NCBI RefSeq assembly: GCF_902806315.1
Contig: NZ_CADCWD010000052.1
Span: 1 to 64,000, forward strand
Direction of reading: 5' to 3'
DNA length: 64,000 nucleotides
Origin: an uncultured Sphingosinicella sp.
Lineage (GTDB): Bacteria > Pseudomonadota > Alphaproteobacteria > Sphingomonadales > Sphingomonadaceae
Shown here piece after piece: positions 39,982 through 56,414 of this stretch (position 1 is its first letter; each line of letters begins with the position of its first letter). A model generated the notes under the pieces. It was not told the DNA's origin and did no database searches. It saw nothing but the letters and a program-made list of their open reading frames with translations. A program made the translations under genes and the position numbers.

Positions 39982-40695
39982 ATGCGACACCTAGTGATGG
40001 CTGCTGCGGCTCTGGCCGTCGCCTCTGCCACTCCTGCGGCGGCGGCCGTTATCATCAGTGCGGATCGGCTGTCGGCGAAGCTCACCACGAATGAGGCTGC
40101 CAGTTTCGCCGTCGAGACATTTGGATCTGCGGGCGATGCCGGGACCGACCTTTATGGTCTGCGCGCCCTGCTGCAGTTCGATCTGATCGGCGGGTTCAAC
40201 ACCAACGTGCTGACGTTCCGTTACACGCTCGAGAATACGTCCTTTGCCAACAATCTTGGCTCCAGCACGGCCGTTTTCGGCTTCAACGTCGCGCCGGACG
40301 CGACGCTCAAGGTGCTGACTGGTCCGTTCGACCTCGGCAAGGGCGGCAACTTCAGTGGCATGGGGAAGCGCGAGTTCTGCATTTACGATGGGTCCAACTG
40401 CAACGGCGGCGGCAATGAGGGTGTGTTCATGAACACCCCTCAAAACATCGCCAGCGGCAAGATGACGAAGGCAATCGGAACATTCACCCTGACCTATGGC
40501 AATCCGGGGCCCACCTCGATCGTGATGAGCGATTTCGTCACGCGCTGGCAGCGAGTGGGCATCAATCAGCAGCAGTCGGCGTCCGGATTCGGCAGCGTTG
40601 TGCCGGAGCCGGAAACCTGGGCGATGATGATTGCTGGTTTTGGCCTTGTCGGCGGGGCGATGCGTCTCCGCCGCCGCGAACTCGCAATCGCCTGA
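39982..40695 (+). CDS. PEPxxWA-CTERM sorting domain protein
   Basis: This 237-residue exported protein has a signal peptide (VMAAAALAVASATPAAAA). The C-terminal sorting signal is VPEPETWAMMIAGFGLVGGAMRLRRR, the alphaproteobacterial PEPxxWA form. Exosortase cleaves such signals during export of surface proteins, usually along with exopolysaccharide. The body is a Gly/Asn/Thr-rich beta domain with one Cys pair (FCIYDGSNC). No exosortase gene is in the window. It is convergent with the sensor kinase gene. Confidence 0.92.
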   Translation: MRHLVMAAAALAVASATPAAAAVIISADRLSAKLTTNEAASFAVETFGSAGDAGTDLYGLRALLQFDLIGGFNTNVLTFRYTLENTSFANNLGSSTAVFGFNVAPDATLKVLTGPFDLGKGGNFSGMGKREFCIYDGSNCNGGGNEGVFMNTPQNIASGKMTKAIGTFTLTYGNPGPTSIVMSDFVTRWQRVGINQQQSASGFGSVVPEPETWAMMIAGFGLVGGAMRLRRRELAIA

Positions 40696-40700
40696 AGTTC

Positions 40701-42041
40701 TTAGATCACGATCCGGAACAGGGCGCCGCCTTCGGGTGAGCGGTCGAGGCTGATCGACGCGCGGTGCGCCAGCACGACCTGGCGCGCCAGACTGAGGCCG
40801 ACGCCCGTGCCGCTGGCCTTGGTGGTGAAGAAGGGCAGGAACACCTCCTGCTGCAGCGACTCCGCCACTCCCGCACCGTTATCTCCCACCTCGATTTGAG
40901 TGCGGCCGCCCTTGGTGAGCGCGAACGACAGGGTAACGGTTGGCTCCGCTGCGTGAACAGAAGCGGCTTCCGCGCCATTCTTGAGCAGGTTCAGGAGCAC
41001 CTGGCACATGAGGTCGGGATCGACGTCCAGCGTGAGGCTCTCCGGAGTCAGGTCGAGCGCGAGAGCGACCGACCGGCCCGCATCGCTCGCCCGGAACAGG
41101 GATTTGAGTTCCCGTGCCCAGGGCAGCACCTCGAACTGCCGTCGCCGTACCTCTGGCGTGCGACTGATCTGCCGGTAGCTTTCGACGAAACCCATTACCC
41201 CGTCCGCCCGGCGGGCCAGCGTCTCGACGGCAGCACGTGCGTCGGCGACATCGGGGTCCGCGCCCCGATCAACCTGGGCCATCAGGTCGGCTGCGGTGTG
41301 CGCCAGCGAAGTGACCGGTGTCATGGAGTTCATGATTTCATGGGTCAGCACACGAACGATGTCACTTTGCGCCGCAAGCTCAACCGCATTGAGTTCGCTC
41401 TGGATCGGCTGGACCGCGATCACCCGCACCAGCCCCCCCAAACGGTGCACGGTCGCGGCGCTCACCATCGCGCTTTGCGGGATCGCGTCGAGCGTCAGCG
41501 GGACCAGCCGTGATGCGCCGGCACCCAGCTCAGTAAGCGCCCCCGCGAAGGATTTCCCGTAGGTCTCGAAATCCTCCACGCGCACGCCGTTGTGCCTGGC
41601 GAGCATCTTTCGTGCCGCCTTGTTGGCAAGTTCCACCTTTCCGGCGCCGTCGACGGTCAGCAACGCCGTTGGGGCGTCGTCCAGTACCGCCTCGAAAAAC
41701 CGATTGTCGTCGCTGAGGCGATGCCGCTCCTCCCGAAGCCGCCGGATGCCCTGTTCGAGCGCCTCGCCGAACTCGCCGAATCCGCTCCCCTGCCCCCGGT
41801 GCGAGAAGCTTTGCGAAAGGTCGCCGAATCTCACCGCGTCCACGAAGCGCGCCAACTCGATATTAGTCTGCTGCACGAACCGCCACACACCGACGATCGC
41901 TCCCAGGCAGATCAGGCCGGCCAGCAGCCGCGCTGCACCCAAACCTTCCACGTCGAGCGAATAGACGAAGCCGAACGCCGTCAGCAGCAGCAATGCCATG
42001 CGCCACAGCAGGCCGAAGATGAAGCTACGCCGGAGGCTCAC
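40701..42041 (-). CDS. Membrane sensor histidine kinase (NtrY-like) of the exporter system
   Basis: This 446-residue kinase has two N-terminal membrane helices (about 12-28 and 36-52) with almost no loop between them. A HAMP-like linker and a PAS domain (DDAPTALLTVDGAGKVELANKAARKML) follow. The HisKA region contains VRVLTHEIMNSMTPVTSL. The ATPase domain has LLNLLKNGAEA, EVGDNGAGV and GTGVGLSLARQ. It is encoded 30 bp downstream of the sigma-54 activator on the same strand and should be its partner. The tiny periplasmic part suggests it senses membrane state or a membrane protein. Confidence 0.9.
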   Translation of the reverse strand: MSLRRSFIFGLLWRMALLLLTAFGFVYSLDVEGLGAARLLAGLICLGAIVGVWRFVQQTNIELARFVDAVRFGDLSQSFSHRGQGSGFGEFGEALEQGIRRLREERHRLSDDNRFFEAVLDDAPTALLTVDGAGKVELANKAARKMLARHNGVRVEDFETYGKSFAGALTELGAGASRLVPLTLDAIPQSAMVSAATVHRLGGLVRVIAVQPIQSELNAVELAAQSDIVRVLTHEIMNSMTPVTSLAHTAADLMAQVDRGADPDVADARAAVETLARRADGVMGFVESYRQISRTPEVRRRQFEVLPWARELKSLFRASDAGRSVALALDLTPESLTLDVDPDLMCQVLLNLLKNGAEAASVHAAEPTVTLSFALTKGGRTQIEVGDNGAGVAESLQQEVFLPFFTTKASGTGVGLSLARQVVLAHRASISLDRSPEGGALFRIVI

Positions 42042-42071: not shown

Positions 42072-43472
42072 CTAGAGCCCATGCTTATCCATGCGCCGGT
42101 AGAGCGATGCACGGGTCAGCCCGAGCTCCGCCGCGGCGAGCGAAATATTGTAAGAATGCTTCTTCAGCGCCGCTTCGACCATTTGCCTTTCGGCACGATC
42201 GAGGTTGAGATCCGCCGCGGCAGTCGGCGGCGGCGGGAGGGTTGTCGTCCTGGGCGTAAAGCTGCGGGAGAGCGAGAAATCCTCGACTGTGAATGCATCG
42301 TCGCCGGCGAGAATGACGGCGCGCTCCGCCGCATGCCGCAGCGCGCGCACATTGCCCGGCCACTCATAGGCAACCAGCGCTGCCGCCACCTCCGGCAGCA
42401 GGCGCCGCGAAGGCTTGCCATATTTTTTTGAATATGCCGCGACATAATGGTCGATCAGCAAAAGTATGTCTTCGCGCCGCTCGCGCAGCGGCGGAAGCTC
42501 GATTTCGACAGTGTTGAGGCGGAAGAGCAGATCCTGGCGGAAAAGGCCCTCGTCGCCGAGCCGCTCCGGCGGCAGGTTGGTCGCCGCGATCACTCGCACG
42601 TCGATCGGCACGGGCCGGTTCGCCCCGACCGGGATCACCTGCCGCTGTTCGAGGGCTGTTAGCAGCTTGGGCTGGAGGTGGAGCGGCAGGTTGCCGACCT
42701 CGTCCAGGAACAAGGTCCCGCCGTCAGCCGCCTGCAGCCGACCGATGCGGTCGCCGCGCGCATCCGTGAAGGCGCCTTTCACGTGCCCGAACAGCTCGGA
42801 CTCGAACAGATTCTCGGCTACCGCCCCCAGGTCCACGGAGACGAGCACCTGGTCCGCTCGGCGCGACCGGCGGTGGAGTTCGCGCGCGGCCAGCTCCTTG
42901 CCCGTGCCGTTCTCCCCTAGAATCAGAACGTTCGCCTCGGTGGGTGCGGCCCGCTCGATCAGTGACATGACTCGCGCCATGCCGGGCGAGCTGCCGAGCA
43001 GCATCGCTTCCGCGCCGGCGGCTGGCGCGGTCACCGCCGCAACGCGCTTGCGCTCCGTTTCGACCTTCTCGCGGGAATTACGAAGCGCCGCGGCGGTGCG
43101 AACGGTCGCGAGCAGCCGCTCGTTCGACCAAGGCTTGGATACGAAGTCGGTCGCCCCGCGCTTCATCGCCTCGACGGCGATCTGGATGCCGCCATGCGCC
43201 GTGATCATCACCACGACGGCTTCGGGATCCCGCTTCAATATTTCGCCGAGCCACTGGAAACCTTCAGCGGCATTGGTCGCCCCGCGCCCGAAATTGGCGT
43301 CGAGCAGGATAACGTCCGCCGGCCCCGCATTCATCGCATCGATCGCTTCTCCCGGGACTTGGAAGGTAGCGACGTCTTCGAATAGGTCGCGCAGCAGCAG
43401 CCGCGCCGACAACAGGATGTCGGGATCATCGTCGACGACGATGCACCGCGCGAATGCTTTCCCCCGCTTCAC
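42072..43472 (-). CDS. Sigma-54-dependent response regulator (NtrC family, GAFTDA variant)
   Basis: This 466-residue activator has a receiver domain (IVVDDDPDILLSARLLL, phospho-acceptor Asp58 in VILLDANFG). The AAA+ domain has Walker A GENGTGKELAARELH and Walker B GGTLFLDEVGNLPL, and a Fis-type helix-turn-helix ends it (NISLAAAELGLTRASLYRRM). The sigma-54 contact loop reads GAFTDA instead of the canonical GAFTGA. It starts with GTG after AGGAGAAGTAGG. It is divergent from the exporter operon, whose start region carries a -24/-12 promoter and repeated palindromes. Confidence 0.93.
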   Translation of the reverse strand: MKRGKAFARCIVVDDDPDILLSARLLLRDLFEDVATFQVPGEAIDAMNAGPADVILLDANFGRGATNAAEGFQWLGEILKRDPEAVVVMITAHGGIQIAVEAMKRGATDFVSKPWSNERLLATVRTAAALRNSREKVETERKRVAAVTAPAAGAEAMLLGSSPGMARVMSLIERAAPTEANVLILGENGTGKELAARELHRRSRRADQVLVSVDLGAVAENLFESELFGHVKGAFTDARGDRIGRLQAADGGTLFLDEVGNLPLHLQPKLLTALEQRQVIPVGANRPVPIDVRVIAATNLPPERLGDEGLFRQDLLFRLNTVEIELPPLRERREDILLLIDHYVAAYSKKYGKPSRRLLPEVAAALVAYEWPGNVRALRHAAERAVILAGDDAFTVEDFSLSRSFTPRTTTLPPPPTAAADLNLDRAERQMVEAALKKHSYNISLAAAELGLTRASLYRRMDKHGL

Positions 43473-43528
43473 CCTACTTCTCCTAAAGCCTCGACAAGGA
43501 TGCGCGAAACAATTTCCGTGCCAGCGGC

Positions 43529-43563
43529 CGTTCGAGATCGAACATGATGTCCGTTTGCGAACA
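43529..43563. promoter_or_regulatory. Paired upstream activator sites for the exporter promoter
   Basis: CGTTCG-AGAT-CGAACA (43529-43544) and TGTCCG-TTTG-CGAACA (43548-43563) are two copies of one 16-bp palindrome pattern, TGTYCG-N4-CGRACA. Their centres are 19 bp apart, about two helical turns. They end 55 bp before the -24 element and lie upstream of the regulator gene too. Confidence 0.7.
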
Positions 43564-43618: not shown

Positions 43619-43634
43619 TGGCACGCCTTGTGCT
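43619..43634 (+). promoter_or_regulatory. Sigma-54 (-24/-12) promoter of the exporter operon
   Basis: TGGCACG-CCTT-GTGCT matches the sigma-54 consensus TGGCACG-N4-TTGCW with one mismatch, and the GG and GC are exactly 10 bases apart. Transcription would begin near 43645, before the 49-residue ORF. Confidence 0.8.
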
Positions 43635-43681
43635 CAGTATCGGGCACAGGGGTTCACAATAGTTTTTCGGGGAGACAGGAA

Positions 43682-43831
43682 ATGTCTAATCTACAGTCCT
43701 TGCTCGGCGGAGCGGTCTGGATGGCGATCGCCACCGTGCTGATGCTCGCCACCTTCGAGCCAGCGCCCGGGCTCGGCAGCGACGCGCAGTTCGCGGCAGT
43801 GAAGGTTGCCGCCGGCTATGCGGACGCTTGA
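43682..43831 (+). CDS. Small membrane protein, 49 residues, first gene of the exporter operon
   Basis: ATG 43682 follows GGGGAGACAGGAA. The protein begins MSNLQSLLGGAVWMAIATVL, includes one hydrophobic helix (residues 8-24) and ends AAVKVAAGYADA. It sits between the sigma-54 promoter and the adaptor gene; the longer track ORF would begin before the proposed transcription start. It could be a sensor, a regulator of the kinase or exporter, or a secreted cargo peptide. Nothing in the sequence decides between these. Confidence 0.65.
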   Translation: MSNLQSLLGGAVWMAIATVLMLATFEPAPGLGSDAQFAAVKVAAGYADA

Positions 43832-43840
43832 GACGCGATG

Positions 43841-43877
43841 TGTTCGCTGGCGAACGCGCTGTGTCCGAATTCGGACA
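43841..43877. promoter_or_regulatory. Second pair of regulator-type palindromes, before the adaptor gene
   Basis: TGTTCG-CTGG-CGAACG (43841-43856) and the perfect palindrome TGTCCG-AATT-CGGACA (43862-43877) follow the same pattern as the upstream pair, with centres 21 bp apart. They end 24 bp before the adaptor ATG. Confidence 0.6.
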
Positions 43878-43901: not shown

Positions 43902-45212
43902 ATGAGTGTGGTGAGAATGCAATCCGCGCCTGAGACCAAGGCGGTGAGCGGCGGCGGTATGGACCGCGTCGTCGAGAAGAAGGGCATCCCCCAGCGGGTG
44001 AAGCTCGGCATCGGCGCGGCCCTCATCGTCGCCGCCGCGAGCGGCTTCTACCTCATGGCGCCGGACGCGAGCAGCCAGACGATCGCGGCTGACCGGGTGA
44101 CCATTTCCACGGTGAGCCAGGGCCGCTTCGACGACTTCCTGCCGCTGCGCGCCCGAGTGACGCCGCTCGTCACTGTTTTCCTCGATGCGGTGGAAGGCGG
44201 CCGCGTGGAGAAGGTGCTCGTCGAGGACGGGGCCATGGTTCAGCAAGGCCAGCTCCTCGCCGCTCTCTCCAATTCCGACCTGCAATTGAACCTCCTCGCC
44301 CGACAGACGGAGGTGACGCAGCAGATCAACTCGATGCGCAGCCAGGAGCTCGCGCTGTCCCAGAACCGGCTCCAGAACGAGCGCACTCGGATCGAAGCGG
44401 AGCTCGCGGCCAGCAAGGCGCGTCGGCAATTCGAGATGCAGCGCCCGCTCGCGGACAAGGGCTTTGTGCCCGGCAAAACCTTCCGCGACAGCCAGGACGA
44501 GGCGCAGTCGGCCAGCCGACGCGCTCAGGTGGTCCGCCAGACCCAGGCGACGGACGAGAAGCTGCAATCCTCGCAGCTCGCTCAGCTCCGGGCCTCCACT
44601 ACGGCACTGAACGCGAGCCTCGGCATCGCCCGCGCCAGCCTCGACGCGCTCAACCTGCGCGCTCCGGTCACGGGCCAGCTCACCGCATTTTCCATCCAGG
44701 TGGGGCAATCGATGAACCGCGGCGAACGGCTCGGCCAGATCGACAGCGCCGGGCGCAACAAGCTGGTCGCGCAGGTCGACGAATTCTATCTCGGCCGCGT
44801 CGTGCCGGGCCAGATCGCCACCGCCGAATGGGGCGGCAAAAGCTACCGGCTGAAGGTCGCGAAAATCTACCCGCAGGTAAAGAACGGCACCTTCGAGGTG
44901 GACTTCCAGTTCATCGGGGCGGAGCCGCCCGAGTTGCAGCGTGGGCAAACCCTGCAGACGCGGCTGACGCTCGGCGATCCCGCGCCTGCTTTGCTGATCC
45001 CGAACGGCGCCTTCTACAACGAGACCGGCGGATCCTGGGTGTTCGTGGTGACGCCCGACGGCTCCGAGGCGATCAAACGCCAGGTCCGGCTCGGCCGCCG
45101 CAATGCCGATTATATCGAAGTGCTGGACGGGCTGGAGCCCGGCGAGCGCGTCCTCACCTCACCTTACACCGGTTTCGCCGACAAGGATCGGCTCGACCTC
45201 GCAGCCAAATGA
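43902..45212 (+). CDS. Periplasmic adaptor of the ABC exporter (HlyD/MacA type)
   Basis: This 436-residue membrane fusion protein has one N-terminal membrane helix (KLGIGAALIVAAASGFYLMAP). A lipoyl half-motif (GGRVEKVLVEDGAMVQQGQLLAALSN), a long coiled coil rich in Gln, Glu and Arg (about residues 120-225), and the second half-motif (RAPVTGQLTAFSIQVGQSMNRGERLGQI) follow. The C-terminal part is a beta-barrel domain. It should link the inner-membrane permeases to an outer-membrane channel. AGGAGGG precedes the ATG. The ATPase gene follows 11 bp after its stop. Confidence 0.9.
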   Translation: MSVVRMQSAPETKAVSGGGMDRVVEKKGIPQRVKLGIGAALIVAAASGFYLMAPDASSQTIAADRVTISTVSQGRFDDFLPLRARVTPLVTVFLDAVEGGRVEKVLVEDGAMVQQGQLLAALSNSDLQLNLLARQTEVTQQINSMRSQELALSQNRLQNERTRIEAELAASKARRQFEMQRPLADKGFVPGKTFRDSQDEAQSASRRAQVVRQTQATDEKLQSSQLAQLRASTTALNASLGIARASLDALNLRAPVTGQLTAFSIQVGQSMNRGERLGQIDSAGRNKLVAQVDEFYLGRVVPGQIATAEWGGKSYRLKVAKIYPQVKNGTFEVDFQFIGAEPPELQRGQTLQTRLTLGDPAPALLIPNGAFYNETGGSWVFVVTPDGSEAIKRQVRLGRRNADYIEVLDGLEPGERVLTSPYTGFADKDRLDLAAK

Positions 45213-45223
45213 AGGAGCCGTCC

Positions 45224-45904
45224 ATGCTTGCCATGCGTGATCTATCGAAGGTCTACCGCACCGAAACCATCGAGACCGCCGCGCTGGACGGGATCGAACT
45301 GGACATCGCCGCTGGCGAGTTCGTCGCGATCATGGGTCCGTCAGGGTGCGGCAAATCGACGCTGCTCAACATCATCGGCATGCTCGATAGCCCGACGAGC
45401 GGCTCCTACGTCTTCAACGGCCAGGAGGTGGCGGGGCTGCCAGAGGGCAAGCTCGCCGACGTCCGCAAGAAGAACCTCGGCTTCATCTTCCAAAGCTTCA
45501 ACCTGGTCGACGAGCTCAGCGTCCGCGAGAATGTCGAGCTTGCTTTGCTCTACCACAATGTTCCCGCCTCCGAGCGCCGCCAGCGCGCCGATACCGTGAT
45601 GGACAAGGTCGGCATCGGCCACCGCGCCAAGCACCGGCCGAGCCAACTTTCGGGCGGACAGCAGCAGCGTGTTGCGGTCGCCCGCGCCCTGGTCGGCAAC
45701 CCAAAGCTGATCCTCGCCGACGAGCCGACCGGCAACCTCGACACGCAGCATGGCGAGGAGGTCATGAAGATGCTCCAGGCGCTCAACCGCGAAGGATCGA
45801 CCATCGTCATGGTCACGCACTCACCGGGCCATGCCGATTATGCCGGGCGCGTGGTGAACATGCTCGACGGCCGCATCCTCCAGGAGAGGCGCCGCGCGGC
45901 GTGA
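45224..45904 (+). CDS. ABC exporter ATPase (MacB/LolD class)
   Basis: This 226-residue ATPase starts [27 protein letters not shown]. Walker A is [15 protein letters not shown], the signature [15 protein letters not shown] and Walker [14 protein letters not shown], with H-loop [11 protein letters not shown]. These are hallmarks of the MacB/LolD/FtsE class that works with FtsX-type permeases. ATG 45224 follows AAGGAG with good spacing; ATG 45209, overlapping the adaptor stop, is an alternative. It is the only ATPase for four downstream permeases. Confidence 0.95.
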
Positions 45905-46386
45905 GAAGGCTGAGCCTCAGCGTCGCTGCGGTTCTGGCGGTTGTGCCGCTCGGCGGCCCCACCTCCGCCCAGACGCGCAGCCAAGCCAGCGTGCTCATGT
46001 CCGAGAGCGAGCAGGGCCGGCAGTTCCAGGAGGAATATGGCTTCAGCGACGCCGTGATCGTTGGCGATACCATCTACCTTTCGGGCCTGGTGGCCGGCAC
46101 GCGGCTTGGCGAGACCGACATGAAACCGGCTTTTGACCGAGTCTACAAGAGCATCGGCGCGATCCTGAAACGTGCCGGCGCCAGCTTCGGCGACATCGTC
46201 GACATGACCAGCTTCCACACCGACGTGGAGGCGCAATTGAAGCCCATGTCCGAGGTCCACAAGACCTATGTGAAGGCGCCCTACCCCGCCTGGACCGCGA
46301 TCGGCGTCGCCAAGATCCTCGGCAACGGCATCACCGAAATCAAGATCACCGCCCGGCGCCCCGCGGCTGCCGGCATCCGGAAATAA
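45901..46386 (+). CDS. Exported Rid (YjgF/YER057c/UK114) family protein lacking the usual Arg
   Basis: This 161-residue protein begins with a GTG overlapping the ATPase stop. It has a signal peptide (LSVAAVLAVVPLGGPTSAQ), so the Rid domain should be periplasmic. The domain is recognisable: YGFSDAVIVGDTIYLSGLVAG, YKSIGAILKRAGASFGDIVDMT and YPAWTAIGVAKILGNGITEIKITA. In RidA deaminases the segment matching YPAWTAIG reads FPARS with a catalytic Arg, replaced here by Trp. A deaminase role is therefore unlikely; ligand binding in the exporter pathway is more plausible. Confidence 0.85.
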   Translation: MRRLSLSVAAVLAVVPLGGPTSAQTRSQASVLMSESEQGRQFQEEYGFSDAVIVGDTIYLSGLVAGTRLGETDMKPAFDRVYKSIGAILKRAGASFGDIVDMTSFHTDVEAQLKPMSEVHKTYVKAPYPAWTAIGVAKILGNGITEIKITARRPAAAGIRK

Positions 46387-46398
46387 GGAGCGAAGGCG

Positions 46399-48903
46399 AT
46401 GTGGCGCAATTATGTGACTGTCGGCGTCCGGGCGCTTGCCAAGAACAAGACCTATGCCTTCATCAACATCTTCGGTCTGGCGCTCGGCCTTGCCGCTTGC
46501 CTGATGATCCTGCTCTTCGTGCGCAACGAGCTGAGCTACGACAAGGATCTACCCGGCGCCTCGCAGGCTTTTCAATTTCAATCCTTCTTCACCGATCGGG
46601 ACACTGGTGAAGTCGATAAGCTCCAGATGGCGCCCTACGTCTCCAAGGATGCTCTCAAGAAAGATTTTCCCCAAATCGAAAATGCAGTGCACGCCCTCGC
46701 TACGGGACCGACCGTGCTCAAGGGCGGCCAGGCTTATGCGACGGAGGACGTCCGCTACGTCGACGGCGATCTGCTCGACATCCTGCAATTCCCTTTGCTG
46801 AAGGGCAATCGCGAGACGGCGCTCGATCAGGTCGGCTCGCTCGTCCTGACGGAAACGGAAGCGCGCAAATATTTCGGTGCCGAGGACCCGATGGGCAAGA
46901 CGCTTACATTCTCGCAGCGCGGACAGCAGACCGACTTCCGCATCACCGGCATTCTCAAGGACCTCCCCAAGAACACGCATTTCGCGGCGACCATGATCGC
47001 CCGCTACGACCCGCAAAGCTACTGGGCCGACCAGAAGGATTTCATGACCCAGTGGGGCTGGCAGTCGGGCTGGGTCTACGTAAAGCTGCGCCCCGGCGCC
47101 GACCCTGACGCAATCAACGCCCAGATGGAAGCCTTCGAGAAGCGCAACATTCCCGACCAGGTTTTCGGCGGCCAGCGCACCAACCAGGGCGACTTTTCCG
47201 AGTTCAAGCTGGCCAACATCGCCGAAATCCATCTCGGCGATGCGCAGAACGCTGCGATGACTCCGGGCAATGACCGGCGCTCGATCATCACCTTCGCGGT
47301 GGTCGCGGCTTTGATCCTCGCAATGGCGTGCATCAACTTCACCAACCTCGCCACCGCCCGCGCCAGCCAGCGTGCCCGCGAAGTCGCGCTGCGCAAGGTG
47401 CTCGGCGCCAACCGGAAGCAGCTCGTCACGCAGTTCCTGGGAGAGTCGGTGCTCGTCGCCTCCTTCGCGATGCTGCTCGCCTTGGCCTTCGTCGAGGTTT
47501 CGCTGCCCGCTTTCGGCGAGTTCGTGAATGCCGACCTCCAGATGCGCTATATCGGCGAGGGCGGCCTTATCCTTCCGATTGTCGCCCTCGTGCTCCTGGT
47601 CGGAGCGGCAGGCGGCGTCTATCCGGCCTTCTACCTGTCGCGTTTTCAGCCCGCCAAGGTGCTGAAGGCCAACAAGTCGGCCGCCGAAGCACAGGGCTCC
47701 GGCTCGTTCCGCAATATCCTGGTGGTGGCGCAGTTTGCAGTGTCGATCGGCCTCATCATCTGCACCGCGATAGTGTACGCCCAGACCCTTCATGCGCGCA
47801 CAGCCGATCCCGGCTACAAGCGCGACGGGCTCCTTCAGCTCGAGGGGGTGGGCCGGCGCGAGATGTTCCCGGTTACCGAGACCCTGATCCGTGAACTGAA
47901 GCGGATCGACGGAGTCACCCATGTGGGCCGCACCGGAATCGGCATCGCAACCCGCAACAACACGAATACCGGCGTGCAGATGCCCGGCCGCAACGATCCG
48001 ATCAACATCGGCTATTACAGCGTCGACGGCGGCTTCCTGGAAGCGATGGGTATCAAGCTGCTCGCCGGCCGCGCGTTCGACGAGAACCGGCCGATGGACG
48101 ACACGACCACGCCGTTCCCGGAGGATCCGGCCGCCGAGCGGGCGCTGATCGCGCGCGGCAGCAACGTGGTGCTGAACGAGCTTGCCGTGCGCAAGCTCGG
48201 CCTCGGCACCCCGCAAGCGGCGATCGGCAAGACCATCAAGATCACCGTCAGCCCGGAATATGGGGGCGTGACGAACGCCACTATCATCGGCGTCGCCCAG
48301 AATTCCCGCTTCCGCTCGGTCCGCGAGTCAATCGACCCAGTCATCTTCAGGTTCAGCCGCATGGGCCAGGGCTGGATGGTGATCCGCTACAATGCCACCG
48401 ACCCGGCGCGCGTTCGCCGCGACGTCGAAGCGGTTTGGAAGCGCATCGCGCCCGAGGTGCCGTTTCAGGGCGAGTTCTCAGAAGAGATCGTGGGGGAGCT
48501 CTACGAGGCGGAGGAAGCGCGTGCGCAGACCTTCGCAGGCTTCGCGATCCTGGCAGTGATCGTCGCCTGCCTCGGCCTGTTCGGCCTCGCCGCCTTCACC
48601 GCCGAGCGGCGCACCAAGGAGATCGGCATCCGGAAGGTGCTGGGCGCCCGTAGCCGCGACATCGTGCGGCTGCTGACGTGGCAATTCTCCAAGCCCGTGA
48701 TCGTGGCCAACCTGATCGCCTGGCCGGTCGCCTGGTGGGTGATGCGGGACTGGCTAAACACGTTCGACACCCGCATCGACCTGGGGCCGACGCCCTTCGT
48801 GCTCGCCGGGGTCCTGGCGCTCGCAATCGCCATCGGCACCATCGCCGGGCATGCGATGAAGGTCGCTCGGGCGAACCCCATCAACGCGCTCCGCTACGAG
48901 TAG
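46399..48903 (+). CDS. FtsX/MacB-like double-domain ABC permease, copy 1
   Basis: This 834-residue membrane protein begins MWRNYVTVGVRALAKNKTYA and has the layout helix, MacB periplasmic core domain, three-helix FtsX block, helix, second periplasmic domain, three-helix FtsX block. Both FtsX blocks carry the coupling helix motif (ALRKVLGANRKQL near 330, GIRKVLGARSRDI near 745), showing internal duplication. It starts 12 bp after the Rid gene. This type resembles the permeases common in Bacteroidetes exporters. It should work with the single ATPase upstream. Confidence 0.92.
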   Translation: MWRNYVTVGVRALAKNKTYAFINIFGLALGLAACLMILLFVRNELSYDKDLPGASQAFQFQSFFTDRDTGEVDKLQMAPYVSKDALKKDFPQIENAVHALATGPTVLKGGQAYATEDVRYVDGDLLDILQFPLLKGNRETALDQVGSLVLTETEARKYFGAEDPMGKTLTFSQRGQQTDFRITGILKDLPKNTHFAATMIARYDPQSYWADQKDFMTQWGWQSGWVYVKLRPGADPDAINAQMEAFEKRNIPDQVFGGQRTNQGDFSEFKLANIAEIHLGDAQNAAMTPGNDRRSIITFAVVAALILAMACINFTNLATARASQRAREVALRKVLGANRKQLVTQFLGESVLVASFAMLLALAFVEVSLPAFGEFVNADLQMRYIGEGGLILPIVALVLLVGAAGGVYPAFYLSRFQPAKVLKANKSAAEAQGSGSFRNILVVAQFAVSIGLIICTAIVYAQTLHARTADPGYKRDGLLQLEGVGRREMFPVTETLIRELKRIDGVTHVGRTGIGIATRNNTNTGVQMPGRNDPINIGYYSVDGGFLEAMGIKLLAGRAFDENRPMDDTTTPFPEDPAAERALIARGSNVVLNELAVRKLGLGTPQAAIGKTIKITVSPEYGGVTNATIIGVAQNSRFRSVRESIDPVIFRFSRMGQGWMVIRYNATDPARVRRDVEAVWKRIAPEVPFQGEFSEEIVGELYEAEEARAQTFAGFAILAVIVACLGLFGLAAFTAERRTKEIGIRKVLGARSRDIVRLLTWQFSKPVIVANLIAWPVAWWVMRDWLNTFDTRIDLGPTPFVLAGVLALAIAIGTIAGHAMKVARANPINALRYE

Positions 48904-48913
48904 GAACCTAAAG

Positions 48914-51412
48914 ATGTGGCGCAACTACCTGACCGTCGGCCTCCGGGCTCTTGCCAAGAACAGGACGTACGCCTTCATCAACATCTTCGGCCTGGCGATC
49001 GGCATGGCCGCCTGCCTGATGATCCTGCTCTTCGTGCGCTACGAGTTGAGCTACGACGGCTGGATCGCCGACAGCGACCGCGTTTTCCAGTTCCAGAGCT
49101 GGTACAAATCGGACGAGACCGGCGAGGAGAACAAGCTCCAGATGACGCCGTGGATCGCGGGTGAGCGACTGGGCAAGGATTTCCCGCAGGTCGAACACCG
49201 CGTCTACGGTTTCACGACGACGCCCGTCTTCATCAAGGACGGCCAGGCCTCGACGATCGAGGACTTCATGTTCGTCGACGCCAATTTCCTGAAGGTGTTC
49301 CCGCTGCCGATGCTCCGCGGCGACGGCGAAGCGCTGAACGCGCCGAATACCGTGGTGCTGACCCAGAAGGAGGCGCGCCGCCTCTACGGCACCGACAATG
49401 TGATTGGCCGCACTCACAGCGTCATCAGCCGCGGTCAGACGCGGGACATGCGCATCACCGGCATTCTCAAGGATCTGCCGACCAACTCGCACCTCAAACT
49501 CTCGACGGTGGCGCGGATCGACTATCCGCAGTTCAACGCCGACACGCCGCAGCAGATGGAATGTTGGGGCTGCCAGAATGGCTGGGTTTGGGCCAAGCTG
49601 AAGAAGCCGTCGGACGCCGAGGCGATCCAGGCCGCACTACCGGCTTGGGAAAAGCGCAACATCCCCGACGAGAATGCGGGCGAGGCGCGCTTCAACGCCG
49701 GTGACGAGCAGGACTGGCATCTGGTCAATCTGGAAGACATCCACCTTGGCGAGGCCCAAGACGGCGCAATAACGCCCGGAAACGACCGGCGTACCATTAT
49801 CACGTTCGCCGTCATCGCCTTGCTGATCCTGGGAATGGCGGTGGTGAACTTCACCAATCTGGCAACCGCTCGCGCCAGCCAGCGCGCGCGAGAGGTGGCG
49901 CTGCGCAAGGTGCTCGGCGCCAACCGCCGGCAGCTCGTCATCCAGTTCATCGGCGAGTCCGTGCTGATCTCGAGCATCTCGATGCTGATCGCGCTCGCTC
50001 TGGTCGAGCTGCTGCTGCCGTCCTTTGCCGCCTTTCTGAAGGCGGAGATGGACATCAGCTATTTCGGTTCGGGCGGCGTGATCCTGCCTGTGCTGGCGCT
50101 GGTGCTGACGGTCGGCGTGCTTGGCGGGCTTTATCCCGCCTTCTTCCTGTCGCGCTTCCAGCCGGCCTCCGTGCTCAAGGCGAACAAGAGCTCGGCCGAG
50201 ACCGCCGGCACCGGGCGGTTGCGCAGTGCTTTGGTGATCGGTCAGTTCGCCGTGTCGATCGGCCTCATCATCTGCACCGCCATCATCTACGGCCAGACGG
50301 TTTACGCCCGTACCGTGGATCCCGGCTACAAGCGCGATCACATCCTGCAGGTCGATGAGCTCGCCCGTTACCAGCTCCTCGGCAAGGGCGAAGCGATCGC
50401 GGAGCAGACGCGGCGCGTGCCGGGCGTGGCTGCGGTCGGACGCACCACCATCGGAGTCGCAACCGACAACAACAACAATACCGGCGTGATGGTCCCCGGC
50501 CGGACCGAGCCGACCACCATCGGCAATTACACCGTCGACGAGGGTTTTCTGGAAGCGATGGGAATGACCATGCTCGCCGGCCGCTGGTTCGACGAGAAGC
50601 GGCCGATGGACGACATGACCCTGCCCTACCCGCCGGATCCCGTCGCAGAGCGGGCGCTGGCCGCGCGGGGGGCCAATGTCGTCGTCAACGAACTCGCGGC
50701 GGAGCGGCTGGGCTTCAAAGACCCGGAGCAGATCGTGGGAAAGACCTTCCGCTCGGCTCTGGTCGATAACGAGATCGGCCTCGTTCCGGTCACGGTGATC
50801 GGCGTTCTAAAGAACGCGCGATTCCGCGACATCCGTCAGCCGCTCGATCCGATCATGTTCCTCAATTCCAACAGCGGCCATACCCACATGATCGTGCGTT
50901 TCCAGGGCAACCCCCAGGCCGCGCGCGCGGGCGTCGAGCGCGCCTGGCAGGCGATCACCCGCGAGGTGCCGTTCAACGCCGACTTCAGCGACGACGTGAT
51001 GATCGAGCTCTACGAAGCGGAGGATGCCCGCGCAAAGACCTTCGCCGGCTTCGCGATCCTGGCGGTGATCGTCGCCTGCCTGGGTCTCTACGGCCTGGCG
51101 GCGTTCACCGCCGAGCGGCGCACCAAGGAGATCGGCATCAGGAAGGTGCTGGGCGCACGCAGCCGCGACATCGTGCGGCTGCTCGCCTGGCAATTCTCCA
51201 AGCCCGTCATCATCGCCAACCTCATCGCCTGGCCGGTCGCCTGGTGGGTGATGCGTGACTGGCTCAACAGCTTCGACACGCGGATCGACCTCGGACCGAC
51301 CCCGTTCGTGCTCGCCGGCCTTCTCGCCCTCGCCATTGCGATCGGCACCATCGCCGGTCATGCCCTGAAGGTCGCTCGCTCCAACCCGATCCGCGCGCTC
51401 CGGTACGAGTGA
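48914..51412 (+). CDS. FtsX/MacB-like double-domain ABC permease, copy 2
   Basis: This 832-residue paralogue of copy 1 starts 10 bp after it. The first 50 residues (RNYLTVGLRALAKNRTYAF) and the last 120 are nearly identical to copy 1, while the periplasmic domains differ more. Both coupling motifs are intact (ALRKVLGANRRQL and GIRKVLGARSRDI). Differences in the first periplasmic domain include a Cys pair (MECWGCQNGW) absent from copy 1. The divergence pattern suggests the permeases keep a common membrane engine but bind different partners. Confidence 0.92.
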   Translation: MWRNYLTVGLRALAKNRTYAFINIFGLAIGMAACLMILLFVRYELSYDGWIADSDRVFQFQSWYKSDETGEENKLQMTPWIAGERLGKDFPQVEHRVYGFTTTPVFIKDGQASTIEDFMFVDANFLKVFPLPMLRGDGEALNAPNTVVLTQKEARRLYGTDNVIGRTHSVISRGQTRDMRITGILKDLPTNSHLKLSTVARIDYPQFNADTPQQMECWGCQNGWVWAKLKKPSDAEAIQAALPAWEKRNIPDENAGEARFNAGDEQDWHLVNLEDIHLGEAQDGAITPGNDRRTIITFAVIALLILGMAVVNFTNLATARASQRAREVALRKVLGANRRQLVIQFIGESVLISSISMLIALALVELLLPSFAAFLKAEMDISYFGSGGVILPVLALVLTVGVLGGLYPAFFLSRFQPASVLKANKSSAETAGTGRLRSALVIGQFAVSIGLIICTAIIYGQTVYARTVDPGYKRDHILQVDELARYQLLGKGEAIAEQTRRVPGVAAVGRTTIGVATDNNNNTGVMVPGRTEPTTIGNYTVDEGFLEAMGMTMLAGRWFDEKRPMDDMTLPYPPDPVAERALAARGANVVVNELAAERLGFKDPEQIVGKTFRSALVDNEIGLVPVTVIGVLKNARFRDIRQPLDPIMFLNSNSGHTHMIVRFQGNPQAARAGVERAWQAITREVPFNADFSDDVMIELYEAEDARAKTFAGFAILAVIVACLGLYGLAAFTAERRTKEIGIRKVLGARSRDIVRLLAWQFSKPVIIANLIAWPVAWWVMRDWLNSFDTRIDLGPTPFVLAGLLALAIAIGTIAGHALKVARSNPIRALRYE

Positions 51413-51422
51413 GCGCGGCAGG

Positions 51423-53909
51423 ATGTGGCGAGCCCATCTGCTGATCGCCGTCCGGCTGCTGGCGCGCAACCGCGTCTATGCCGCGATCAACATCGGTGGG
51501 CTCGCGCTCGGGCTGGCCGGGTGCCTGCTGATCCTGAGCTACATCCGCTACGAGCGCAGCTACGATGCTTGGCTGCCGGACAGCGAGCGCATCTACCAGG
51601 TGCAGGCCACCTGGACCGAACCGGGCCAGCCGGTGAGACGCTCGCAGAACAGTCCTTTCCCGCTGCGCGAGACGCTCGCCAAGGCTTTCCCTCAGATCGA
51701 GACGCTCAGCGTGATGAGCAATGGCCAGACCGTGCTGACGCGCGACGGCGAGCCGATTTTCCTCGATTGGGCCGGCGTCGATCCGAGCTTTTTCGAGATC
51801 CTCCAACTGCCCTTCGTCAGCGGATCGGCGAAGACCGCGCTCCCAGACAACAACACGATCGTGCTGACCGAGAGCGAGGCCGTCCGGCAGTTCGGCACCG
51901 CCGACGCGGTGGGGCGAACGATCGCGCTCGGCGCCGGGGAGGGGAAGCGCGACCGTCGCGTCGGCGGCGTGCTGAAGGACCTGCCGAAGAACAGCAGCCT
52001 GAAGCTGACGGTCGTCGCACGCTACAACCCCGCCGATTATGACTGGATGCCGCCCGAGGCGAAGGGCTGGAGCAACATGGGCCAGCAGCATTATGTGAAG
52101 CTGCGCGCGGATGCCGATGCGAAAACGATCAATGCCGCCCTCCCCGCCTGGGAGAAGCGCGTGGTCGCGCCGGAACTGAAGGAAGGCAAGCCGTCCGCAT
52201 CGGCCGACATGCTGGAGCTGAAGCTCGTTCCGGTCAGCGAGGTTCATCTCGGCCAGGCCCAGGAAGATGCGCTGCAGCCCGGCGGCGATCCGCGAACGCT
52301 CGCCACCTTCGCGGTGGTGGCGCTGATGACGCTCGGTATGGCCGTGATCAACTTCGTCAACTTGTCGACCGCGCGCGCGACACAGCGAGCGCGCGAGTTG
52401 GCGCTGCGCAAGGTGCTCGGCGCCCGACGCGGTCAGCTCGTCGTTCAGCTGCTCGGCGAGTCCCTGCTGATGGCCGCGGCCGCCATGCTTGTCGCCCTCG
52501 CCTTGGTGGAAGTGGCGACGCCCTGGCTCGGCAGCTGGCTCGGCGCGGAGCTGAAGATCGCCTATCTCGGCGACCATGGGATGCTAATCCCGGCGCTTCT
52601 CCTCCTTGCCCCCACCGGCATCCTCGGCGGCCTGTATCCCGCGCTCTACCTGAGCGCCTTCCAGCCCGCGACCGTGCTCCGCGCCGGCAGGACCGCCCGT
52701 GAGACGCCCGGCAAGGGAAGGCTGCGCGCAGCGCTCGTAGTGGTGCAGTTCGCGATCGCGATCGGCCTCATCGTCTGCACCTCGATCATCTACTCGCAGA
52801 CGCGCTACGTGGAGACGGTCGACCCCGGCTATCGCCGCGACGGCCTGATCCAGATCGACGCCGCCTGGCGCTTCGCCGGAAGTGACCGCTACGGCCCGGC
52901 GCGGGCCCAGCTGCTCGCGGTGCCCGGCGTGGTCGCGGCCGGCCGCACCAACCTGGGCGTCGCCGCCGAGAACAAGAACGTCGCGGCCGTCCGCCGGCCC
53001 GGCGCCCCGCAGGACCTCTCGATCGGCCTTTATGCGGTCGACCCGGATTTCTTCCGCACGACGGAGATGGGGCTGCTCGCCGGCCGCTTTCTCGGCGAGC
53101 GGTTCGCGCGAGACCTCCTCACGCGAGTTGGGGAAGTCGGCCCACCCACTCCGGACCTGGCATCGCGCGGCATCAATGTGGTCGTAAACCGCTCCGCCGT
53201 GAGGATGCTGGGCTTCGGCTCGCCGAGCGCCGCGATCGGGCAATCCGTTCAGATCGGGATAGACGGGGGGGCGCTCACGCCATCGACGATCGTGGGCGTG
53301 GTCGGCGACACGCGCATCCGCACCGCGCGCGAGGCGATCGAGCCGCTTATCTACACCTATGACCCGTTGCGCACGAGCCAGGTGATCGTCCGCTATGCGG
53401 CCGCCCATCCGGGCGAGGTGATGGACGGCATCAGCGCCGTCTGGCGCCGGTTCGAGCCTGAGATACCGTTTCAGGGGCGCTTCGCCGAGGACATCATCGC
53501 GGAGGTCTATGCCGCTGACCGCGCGCGCGGCGGCGTGTTCGCGGCGTTTTCCGCGCTGGCGATCATCATCGCCTGCCTCGGCCTCTACAGCCTCGCCGCC
53601 TTCGCGACCGAGCGGCGGACGAAGGAGATCGGCATCCGCAAGGTTCTGGGCGCCAAAGTGCGCGACATCGTGCGCCTGCTCGCCTGGCAGTTCTCCAAGC
53701 CCGTCATCATCGCCAACCTCGTCGCCTGGCCGGTCGCCTGGTGGGCGATGCGCGACTGGCTCAACACATTCGACGCGCGGATCGCGCTCGGGCCCGGCCC
53801 CTTCTTGGTCGCCGGTTTGCTGGCGCTCGGCATCGCGATCGGGACTGTCGCGGGGCACGCGCTGAAGGTTGCCCGCACCAATCCGATCCACGCGCTGCGC
53901 TACGAATAA
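51423..53909 (+). CDS. FtsX/MacB-like double-domain ABC permease, copy 3
   Basis: This 828-residue copy is the most divergent at the N-terminus (MWRAHLLIAVRLLARNRVYA). It keeps both coupling motifs (ALRKVLGARRGQL and GIRKVLGAKVRDI) and the C-terminal WQFSKPVIIANLVAWPVAWW block. The second periplasmic domain lacks the Asn-rich TRNNTNTG-type segment of copies 1 and 2 (ENKNVAAVRRPGAP here). It starts 10 bp after copy 2. Confidence 0.92.
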   Translation: MWRAHLLIAVRLLARNRVYAAINIGGLALGLAGCLLILSYIRYERSYDAWLPDSERIYQVQATWTEPGQPVRRSQNSPFPLRETLAKAFPQIETLSVMSNGQTVLTRDGEPIFLDWAGVDPSFFEILQLPFVSGSAKTALPDNNTIVLTESEAVRQFGTADAVGRTIALGAGEGKRDRRVGGVLKDLPKNSSLKLTVVARYNPADYDWMPPEAKGWSNMGQQHYVKLRADADAKTINAALPAWEKRVVAPELKEGKPSASADMLELKLVPVSEVHLGQAQEDALQPGGDPRTLATFAVVALMTLGMAVINFVNLSTARATQRARELALRKVLGARRGQLVVQLLGESLLMAAAAMLVALALVEVATPWLGSWLGAELKIAYLGDHGMLIPALLLLAPTGILGGLYPALYLSAFQPATVLRAGRTARETPGKGRLRAALVVVQFAIAIGLIVCTSIIYSQTRYVETVDPGYRRDGLIQIDAAWRFAGSDRYGPARAQLLAVPGVVAAGRTNLGVAAENKNVAAVRRPGAPQDLSIGLYAVDPDFFRTTEMGLLAGRFLGERFARDLLTRVGEVGPPTPDLASRGINVVVNRSAVRMLGFGSPSAAIGQSVQIGIDGGALTPSTIVGVVGDTRIRTAREAIEPLIYTYDPLRTSQVIVRYAAAHPGEVMDGISAVWRRFEPEIPFQGRFAEDIIAEVYAADRARGGVFAAFSALAIIIACLGLYSLAAFATERRTKEIGIRKVLGAKVRDIVRLLAWQFSKPVIIANLVAWPVAWWAMRDWLNTFDARIALGPGPFLVAGLLALGIAIGTVAGHALKVARTNPIHALRYE

Positions 53910-53924
53910 GGGAGGAACACAGAC

Positions 53925-56414
53925 ATGTGGGGCAATTACCTGACCGTGGCGCTAAGGGCGCTGACGAAGAGCCGGACCTATGCGTTCATCAACATCTTCG
54001 GCCTGGCGATCGGGCTCGCCGCATGCCTGATGATCCTGCTCTACGTCCGCTACGAGACGAGCTACGATAGCTGGCTGCCCGACGCCGAGCGTATCTACCA
54101 GGTCCAGGCGATCCCCACGAGCGAGGACATTGCCGAGCGTGTGCCGCAGCAGGGAGCCCACGGCGTTGTCGCGGAATCCCTCGCCCGCGCATTTCCGGAG
54201 GTCGAGGCGGCGACCCGCGCCGAGGGCCAGGCGATGAACATCATGCAGAAAGGCGAAGCCGTTTCCCTGGAGATGCTCGCCGCAGAGGATAATTTCTTCC
54301 GGATCCTGCAGCTTCCCTTCATTCGAGGCGACGGTAGCCGCGCCCTCGCTGACATGAACAGCACCGCCATCAGCCGGTCTCAGGCCATGACGCTCTTCGG
54401 CAGCGTCGACGTCGTGGGCCGCACGATCGACGGCAGTGTCCGGGGCGAGCCTTACAGCCTTCGCGTGAGCGGCGTGTTCGAAGACCTTCCGCGCAACAGC
54501 CACATGTTCTTCTCGATGGTCCGGCGGATTACCGGCGAGGAAAAGGAGCAGTGCGGCTGGACCTGCATCAACGGCAATGTCTATCTGAAGCTGAGGCCCG
54601 GGGTCGACGCGGACTCGATCAATGCGCGCCTCCCGCAATGGGAGCGCCGCGACATCCCGGCGCGCAACGTCGCCGGGCAGCGGGTGAGCGAGGGCGACCT
54701 CTTCGACTGGCGTCTCGTCAATGTCCGGGACGTGCACCTGAGCGGTGCCGAAGGCGCGGAGGAGCGGCCGGGCAACGACCGCCGCACCGTCATGACCTTC
54801 AGCATAATCGCCATCCTGATCCTGTCGATGGCCTCGATCAACTTCATCAACCTCGCCACCGCCCGCGCGGGACAGCGCGCGCGCGAAGTGGCGCTGCGCA
54901 AGGTGCTCGGCGCCCGGCGGGGGCAGCTCGTCACGCAGTTCCTCGGCGAATCCATGCTGATCACAGGGGTCGCCCTCCTGATCGCTCTGGCGCTCGTCGA
55001 GCTCAGCCTTCCCTACATGTCGTCGGTGCTCAACGCCGAGTTGAACGTCACCTATGTCGGAGAAGGCGGGATCGTGCCGATCGTGCTGCTGCTGTGGCTC
55101 TCCGTCGGCGTTGCGGGCGGCCTCTACCCGGCCTTTTATCTCTCCCGCTACCAGCCCGGCGAAGTGCTGAAGGCCAACAAGTCCTCGGCGGAACCGCGAG
55201 GCACCGGCCGCCTCAGGGGCATATTGGTGGTCACCCAGTTCGCTGTGTCGATCGGGCTCATCATTTGCACGATGATCGTCTACGCCCAGACGCTCTTTAC
55301 GCAGCAGACCGATCTCGGCTTCCGCCGCGACGGCCTGATCCAGGTCTCCGGCCTCAATCGCGCGCAGGTCATCCCCGCCCGCGAACAGCTGATGCGTCGC
55401 GTGGCCGCGCTCGACGGGGTGGAGGGCGTCACCGCGGGAGGCATCTGGGTCGCGAGCGGGCAGACGCTCAACACGGACGTGCAGATCCCGGGGCGCTCCT
55501 CGCTCCCGCTCATCGGCTTTTACAGCGTGGAACCCAAGTTCTTCGACACGCTCGGCATCCGGCTGCTCGCGGGGCGGGTGCTTTCCCAAAACTTTGCCAA
55601 GGACAATGCCTATACGCCCTACGAGCCTGAAGAGGCCGTTGAGCCTGCACAGCGGGCAATGGTGGAGCGGGGGATCAGCATCGTCGTCAACGAGAATGCC
55701 GCCAGGCGCATGGGCTTTGCGAGCCCGGAGACTGCCGTGGGCAAGACCGTCCGGGTCAACATGTTCGGGGAGGAGCTCGGCATGGCGCCCGCGACGATCG
55801 TGGGCGTGGTGGCGGACAGCCGCTTCCGCTCGCTCCGCGAGGCGGTCGAGCCGACCATCTTCTACGACCGGGGCATCTATTCGCGGATGATTGTCCGCTA
55901 TCGCTCTGCCGATCCGCAAGCTCTCCGCGAGCGGATCCAGCGCGTCTGGCGAGAGATGTTCCCGGACGTGCCCGTCGACGCCGAGTTCGCTGATGCGCAG
56001 CTCGCCGAGCTCTACACGAGCGACGCGGCGCGCGGCCGCACCTTCGCCAGCTTCACGCTGCTGGCAGTGGTGATCGCCTGCCTCGGCCTGTTCGGCCTCG
56101 CCGCCTTCACGGCCGAGCGGCGCACCAAGGAGATCGGCATCCGCAAGGTATTCGGCGCAGGCGTGCGCGACATCGTTCAGCTGCTCGCCTGGCAGTTTTC
56201 CAAGCCGGTGATCGTCGCCAACCTGATCGCCTGGCCGGTCGCCTGGTGGGTGATGCGCGACTGGCTGAACGGGTTCGACGCTCGCATCGCGCTGACGCCG
56301 GGGCCGTTCCTGCTCGCCGGCTTCATGGCCCTCGTGATCGCGATCGGGACCATTGTCGGCCATGCCGTGAAGGTCGCCCGAACGAACCCCATCCACGCGC
56401 TGCGTTACGAATAA
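53925..56414 (+). CDS. FtsX/MacB-like double-domain ABC permease, copy 4
   Basis: This 829-residue copy closes the operon, 15 bp after copy 3 with GGGAGGAA upstream. It retains the double architecture and the first coupling motif ALRKVLGARRGQL; the second reads GIRKVFGAGVRDIVQLL, a slight variant. A Cys pair lies in the first periplasmic domain (EEKEQCGWTCINGN) at the place where copy 2 has one. All four copies end with NPI-ALRYE. No further export gene follows, and no outer-membrane channel is encoded here. Confidence 0.92.
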   Translation: MWGNYLTVALRALTKSRTYAFINIFGLAIGLAACLMILLYVRYETSYDSWLPDAERIYQVQAIPTSEDIAERVPQQGAHGVVAESLARAFPEVEAATRAEGQAMNIMQKGEAVSLEMLAAEDNFFRILQLPFIRGDGSRALADMNSTAISRSQAMTLFGSVDVVGRTIDGSVRGEPYSLRVSGVFEDLPRNSHMFFSMVRRITGEEKEQCGWTCINGNVYLKLRPGVDADSINARLPQWERRDIPARNVAGQRVSEGDLFDWRLVNVRDVHLSGAEGAEERPGNDRRTVMTFSIIAILILSMASINFINLATARAGQRAREVALRKVLGARRGQLVTQFLGESMLITGVALLIALALVELSLPYMSSVLNAELNVTYVGEGGIVPIVLLLWLSVGVAGGLYPAFYLSRYQPGEVLKANKSSAEPRGTGRLRGILVVTQFAVSIGLIICTMIVYAQTLFTQQTDLGFRRDGLIQVSGLNRAQVIPAREQLMRRVAALDGVEGVTAGGIWVASGQTLNTDVQIPGRSSLPLIGFYSVEPKFFDTLGIRLLAGRVLSQNFAKDNAYTPYEPEEAVEPAQRAMVERGISIVVNENAARRMGFASPETAVGKTVRVNMFGEELGMAPATIVGVVADSRFRSLREAVEPTIFYDRGIYSRMIVRYRSADPQALRERIQRVWREMFPDVPVDAEFADAQLAELYTSDAARGRTFASFTLLAVVIACLGLFGLAAFTAERRTKEIGIRKVFGAGVRDIVQLLAWQFSKPVIVANLIAWPVAWWVMRDWLNGFDARIALTPGPFLLAGFMALVIAIGTIVGHAVKVARTNPIHALRYE

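Follow-up and report, generated by a model that had tools for sequence, protein, structure and literature searches.

A small membrane protein encoded at a conserved position

The open reading frame at positions 43682-43831 (plus strand) of the window, the 64,000-nucleotide stretch of Sphingosinicella DNA analyzed here, encodes a genuine small single-pass membrane protein whose frame is under selection. The slot that it occupies, between the genes for a sigma-54 response regulator and an exporter adaptor, is kept across dozens of Sphingomonadaceae species, whereas its occupant evolves rapidly. Other small membrane proteins of stress-induced two-component regulons are known; what sets this case apart is a position that stays constant as its occupants change. 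The peptide probably tunes either the pump or the sensor. It represents a family of small membrane proteins that has so far gone unannotated and whose function should be easy to test, given the constant genomic location, the recognizable promoter, and the likely regulator site.

The 49-residue product, MSNLQSLLGGAVWMAIATVLMLATFEPAPGLGSDAQFAAVKVAAGYADA, occurs once in its own genome. No family in Pfam or NCBIfam (at E<=1) or in PHROG matches it, and no description of the peptide or of its locus was found in the open-access literature. The first-pass annotation had noted a good ribosome site, a start about 37 nt after the expected sigma-54 transcription start, one hydrophobic helix, and an Ala-rich tail, and each of these observations holds. 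The ribosome binding site GGGGAGA (43669-43675, plus strand) lies ~7 nt upstream of the ORF, and transcription from promoter P1 (see below) is expected to begin near 43645, ~37 nt 5' of the ATG. The Kyte-Doolittle profile has a single hydrophobic segment, with a maximum of 2.04 at residues 7-25, in agreement with AlphaFold2, which predicts a transmembrane helix over residues 3-24 (codons 43688-43753, plus strand) with block pLDDT of 87-96 over residues 1-20 and an uncertain tail. A longer frame of 95 aa would begin at an in-frame ATG at 43544, but that ATG lies 5' of P1.

Over the 53 slot peptides identified in this study, the mean net charge is +1.19 in the N-terminal flank of the helix and 0.00 in the C-terminal flank; the N-terminal flank is the more positive in 35 of the 53 peptides, and the two are equal in 12. 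This bias is consistent with a cytoplasmic N-terminus, and the predicted topology thus places the C-terminus in the periplasm.

Sigma-54 promoters and candidate regulator sites

On one side of the peptide gene, on the minus strand, lie the genes for an NtrC-type sigma-54 response regulator (42072-43472; Response_reg, Sigma54_activat, and HTH_8 domains) and a histidine kinase (40701-42041). By its domains and hydropathy, the latter has two N-terminal helices, a loop of few residues between them, and a PAS domain. The hydropathy windows, starting at residues 6-11 and 31-39, together with the N-terminal sequences, assign it to the intramembrane-sensing type. Such kinases often sense via membrane partners (PMC3023708, PMC7828314), and the one encoded here, which lacks nearly all of a periplasmic loop, is likely to depend on such a partner for sensing. 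On the other side, on the plus strand, the gene for the periplasmic adaptor of an exporter (43902-45212; the nearest NCBIfam model, DarC, scores below its cut-off) is followed by that for an ABC ATPase of the MacB/LolD/DarD-like kind (45209-45904).

Scanning of the 64 kb revealed only two sigma-54 promoter matches with one mismatch, and both fall in the regulator-peptide intergenic region, facing apart. P1 (43619-43634, plus strand, TGGCACGCCTTGTGCT; match TGGCACGCCTTGTGC at 43619-43633) precedes the peptide gene, and the divergent sigma-54-like promoter (43509-43523, minus strand, TGGCACGGAAATTGT) precedes the regulator and kinase genes. The divergent promoter, with consensus TGGCAYR-N4-YTGW (TGGCACG-N4-TTG[AT]), is kept in 51 of the 56 related loci described below.

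Each side of the peptide gene also carries a pair of copies, ~20 bp apart, of a palindrome, TGTCCG-N4-CGGACA, in which C/T and G/A variants occur. The upstream pair consists of a site with one mismatch at 43529-43544 and the exact palindrome TGTCCGTTTGCGAACA at 43548-43563, and the downstream pair of a site with one mismatch at 43841-43856 and the palindrome TGTCCGAATTCGGACA at 43862-43877 (all given on the plus strand). The exact palindrome, of which TGTCCGTTTGCGAACA is one copy, occurs only four times in the 2.7-Mb genome. The third exact copy lies before a sigma-54 site 5' of a PCMT gene (pcm) and a gene for a TolC-family outer-membrane channel (L113, G000:C28, 5518-7851), an arrangement also seen in four of seven tested relatives; no sigma-54 site is near the fourth (C50). 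Judging by where it lies and by its co-occurrence with sigma-54 promoters, the palindrome is presumably the site of the adjacent response regulator. The divergent promoter and the shared palindromes would then imply an autoregulated loop.

With its sigma-54 promoters and a palindrome common to several transcription units, the system has the features expected of a sigma-54-dependent two-component regulon. Since the palindrome stands before pcm-tolC as well as around the peptide gene, this regulon would be an envelope or tripartite-efflux response, and the peptide and the TolC-family channel seem to answer to a single two-component system. The picture suggested by the sites is that of an autoregulated two-component system raising a tripartite exporter together with its outer-membrane channel; it outlines an uncharacterized sigma-54 envelope/efflux regulon of Sphingomonadaceae, consisting of the two-component system, the peptide, the MacAB-like exporter, and pcm-tolC. 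In one relative (L117, G010, ~10344-10429), a presumed palindrome and a sigma-54 site also precede a gene for a small PspC-domain protein.

Conservation of the slot

We analyzed 56 distinct regulator-adaptor intervals from genomes of the genus and of GTDB, nearly all of them from Sphingomonadales, mostly Sphingosinicella and Sphingomonas, and one from Kordiimonas. In related genomes, the seven best matches of the peptide outside its own genome are all flanked by orthologs of the regulator and the adaptor. In 50 of the 56 intervals, a small ORF starts 31-56 nt after P1, preceded by a ribosome site and encoding a hydrophobic segment; shuffled intervals give an expectation of 0.28 such loci, a figure that reflects composition and not independent events, as the loci are related. 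Inspection added three more loci, and L060, L068, and the Kordiimonas locus L087 carry no slot peptide. The first-pass annotation had suggested looking for homologues always upstream of the adaptor and for conservation of the frame in related genomes; both are seen in these 53 of the 56 loci, and pN is lower than pS in 75 of 78 within-clade pairs of similar peptides.

Elsewhere, the regulator and adaptor genes occur with only one sigma-54 promoter and lack a small membrane ORF; this holds for ten loci (L139-L148) in other families of the order and for three (L135-L137) in genus g28, which belongs to the same family. The exporters of these loci are orthologous to that of the window, their adaptors being 50-60% identical. 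The presence of the kinase-regulator-exporter locus without the peptide indicates that the peptide is an accessory, which disfavors both exported cargo and an essential subunit; it is probably neither cargo nor a core part of the exporter. In a second copy of the locus in one relative (L047, G022:C29), the kinase, regulator, peptide, and adaptor genes are intact, the ATPase gene is apparently frameshifted, and the permease gene is partial; this genome is 68% complete, and the copy is not used as proof.

Selection and diversity of the slot peptides

Pooled pN/pS values in the true frame and then in the shifted frames are 0.89, 1.00, and 1.17 for clade A, to which the window peptide belongs; 0.55, 0.88, and 2.41 for clade B; and 0.71, 0.96, and 1.47 for clade D. 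The pooled ratio of clade C is flat at ~1, and its close pairs give 0.42, 0.74, and 0.44, so that selection in this clade is seen in close pairs only. Within clade A, the first 30 residues have a pN/pS of 0.77 versus 1.07 for the tail, which argues that the membrane helix, a constrained part of ~28 residues, carries the function and that the variable Ala-rich tail is free to change. The 31-aa peptide of L026 ends three residues past the helix motif.

The occupants of the slot are of several types: a bare helix, a helix plus Cys-containing tail, a helix plus conserved and presumably periplasmic tail, and a UrcA-like protein. Clade A peptides have G, W, and a LEPV-like motif in and after the single helix, followed by the variable tail, which contains at least two Cys in eight relatives. 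Clade B peptides are only 27-28 aa long (e.g., MQKFEALAFTAGFVLTGFLTLVALPFA), and those of clade C look like secretion signals to which a short tail is attached. In clade D the helix is followed by the conserved tail GHALLxLGFASxxLAFDFGQxCPNS; the DNA encoding this tail partly overlaps presumed regulator sites, and its conservation may therefore not be entirely protein-driven. Profile comparison of clade A with clades B and D found no significant similarity. In Sphingomonas jatrophae (L063), the slot between regulator and adaptor is filled by a 75-aa protein of the UrcA family (TIGR04433, 48.5 bits versus a cut-off of 25), which the window peptide does not match. UrcA of Caulobacter is a functionally uncharacterized periplasmic protein that metals induce via a two-component system (PMC8963506). 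One could speculate, although we consider it rather unlikely, that the slot is a lineage-specific hot-swap site, where a sigma-54 two-component efflux regulon acquired a promoter-peptide cassette within Sphingomonadaceae, and where small peptides unrelated to one another, membrane-bound or secreted, interchange as induced modulators of the sensor-exporter assembly.

Operon structure

A second sigma-54 promoter separates the peptide and adaptor genes in 28 of the 53 loci, and there the peptide gene forms its own transcription unit. This promoter is absent from the window and 24 other loci, where the peptide gene is thus the first of the exporter operon. The earlier description of the peptide as the first product of the exporter operon is therefore correct for the window and does not extend to the 28 relatives. 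The stop codon overlaps the adaptor start by 4 nt in L070, L076, and L080 (a similar overlap in L084 would need a CTG start); in nine further loci, no more than 14 nt separate it from the adaptor.

Possible role of the peptide

The first-pass annotation had offered three roles for the product: regulator of a sensor, subunit of the exporter, or exported cargo. The last is opposed by the loci with an exporter and no peptide; the first and an accessory form of the second are both retained as candidates, with feedback on the kinase placed slightly ahead. In this mechanism, the adjacent response regulator would switch on the peptide from its own promoter P1, making it the first output of an envelope-stress/efflux regulon formed by the kinase-regulator pair, the peptide, the MacAB-like exporter, and pcm-tolC. 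Acting through its helix as an induced membrane modulator, the peptide would bind the short-loop kinase, or a kinase-exporter complex, and damp the autoregulated response by the logic of CpxP, ZraP, and MgrB. By this analogy we tentatively favor the kinase, at somewhat less than even confidence. The conserved slot with its start 31-56 nt after P1, the selection on the true frame in clades A, B, and D, the autoregulated loop, and the two-helix kinase with almost no periplasmic loop are all consistent with this role.

The layout of the locus is that of cpxP and zraP. In the CpxP/CpxAR and ZraP/ZraSR systems of Enterobacteriaceae, the gene of a small secreted protein diverges from those of the two-component system that induces it. 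Both CpxP and ZraP feed back on their kinases, and ZraR is also a sigma-54 regulator. The window peptide shares with them the divergent position beside a two-component system. CpxP and ZraP, however, are soluble proteins of the periplasm, larger than this membrane helix and not homologous to it. A closer structural parallel is MgrB, a 47-aa single-helix protein that can feed back on the kinase PhoQ (PMC2789325, PMC8404706). It likewise has a cytoplasmic N-terminus and a short periplasmic tail and belongs to the regulon of its kinase. Its two periplasmic Cys residues are important for function (PMC8404706) and have a counterpart in the Cys pairs of the eight clade A relatives; the window peptide, in contrast, contains no Cys. 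MgrB also differs in that neither its sequence nor a curated model matches the window peptide, PhoQ has a periplasmic sensor domain, and the promoter of the window peptide is of the sigma-54 type.

Co-divergence with possible partners was assessed in a test that is small, mixed, and unstable within clades. Peptide distances correlate with those of the cytoplasmic part of the kinase (partial r 0.50, a small test) and of the adaptor (partial Mantel r 0.43, p 0.001, clades A+B), and not with those of the ABC subunit. Against feedback on the kinase, the partial r is -0.03 for the helices of the kinase itself, the part expected to co-diverge with a partner that binds helix to helix, and the same kinases work without the peptide in other families. 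The 4-nt overlap with the adaptor gene in some lineages points instead to the exporter, on whose permeases or adaptor membrane anchor the helix could pack, stabilizing or tuning the pump. Such proteins are known: AcrZ acts on AcrB, and KdpF, the first product of its operon, acts on the Kdp pump. Like these, the window peptide is a single-helix protein expressed with a membrane pump, its gene always lies directly 5' of the adaptor gene, and in the window, where the second promoter is missing, the two are predicted to be co-transcribed. On the other hand, it has no sequence match to AcrZ or KdpF, the pump is of another class and has orthologs lacking the peptide, the exporter has its own promoter in more than half of the loci, and the adaptor correlation disappears within clade A and within clade B. 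We regard an exporter accessory as slightly less probable than feedback on the kinase.

A general stress-induced membrane peptide of the YohP or PspD kind, acting on the bilayer or on targets other than its neighbors, is less probable still. Clade B peptides hardly extend beyond a helix, the 27-aa YohP provides a precedent for membrane insertion of such a small protein (PMC7549839), and a PspC-domain protein appears in the regulon of one relative; yet the peptide is lineage-restricted and tied to one locus, where all its best matches in its own and related genomes reside. Export as the cargo or precursor of a darobactin-like system is very improbable. A small peptide with a variable tail does head the operon, the top curated models are DarC for the adaptor and DarD for the ATPase, and the adaptor, ATPase, and permeases are best matched by the DarBCD, MacAB, and ADOP models. 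However, the scores are far below the Dar cut-offs (DarC 189.6 of 450, DarD 273.4 of 375, and DarB 96.8 of 700 bits), the ADOP cut-off is not reached, no RiPP enzyme, including radical SAM, is present among the annotated operon genes, the membrane helix is the constrained part, with nothing after it in clade B, and the exporter persists without the peptide. The least probable role is that of a leader ORF or arrest peptide, whose translation and not product would control the adaptor; the short distance or overlap in some lineages would suit it, but a conserved C-terminal arrest motif is absent, the clade A tail is unconstrained, the helix residues are selected, and about half of the loci have a separate exporter promoter.

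Other genes of the neighborhood

The protein encoded at 39982-40695, convergent with the kinase gene, belongs to the PEPxxWA-CTERM "cistern family" (108 bits against NF033947, cut-off 60). A link to the XrtA/PEP-CTERM PrsK/PrsR system was considered and rejected, as the regulator scores 340.9 of 502.6 bits (TIGR02915) and the kinase 49 of 300 (TIGR02916), and a search of the 3 kb beyond the kinase in the relatives yielded no PEP-CTERM motif. Within the exporter operon, positions 45901-46386 (plus strand) encode a member of the RidA/YjgF family that apparently carries a signal sequence; its gene overlaps the ATPase gene by 4 nt and is present in only some relatives. The single ATPase is followed, over 46399-56414, by four tandem MacB/FtsX-type permeases of ~830 aa (46399-48903, 48914-51412, 51423-53909, and 53925-56414, all on the plus strand, the last read directly from the sequence), for which the nearest model is ADOP (TIGR03434), below its cut-off.
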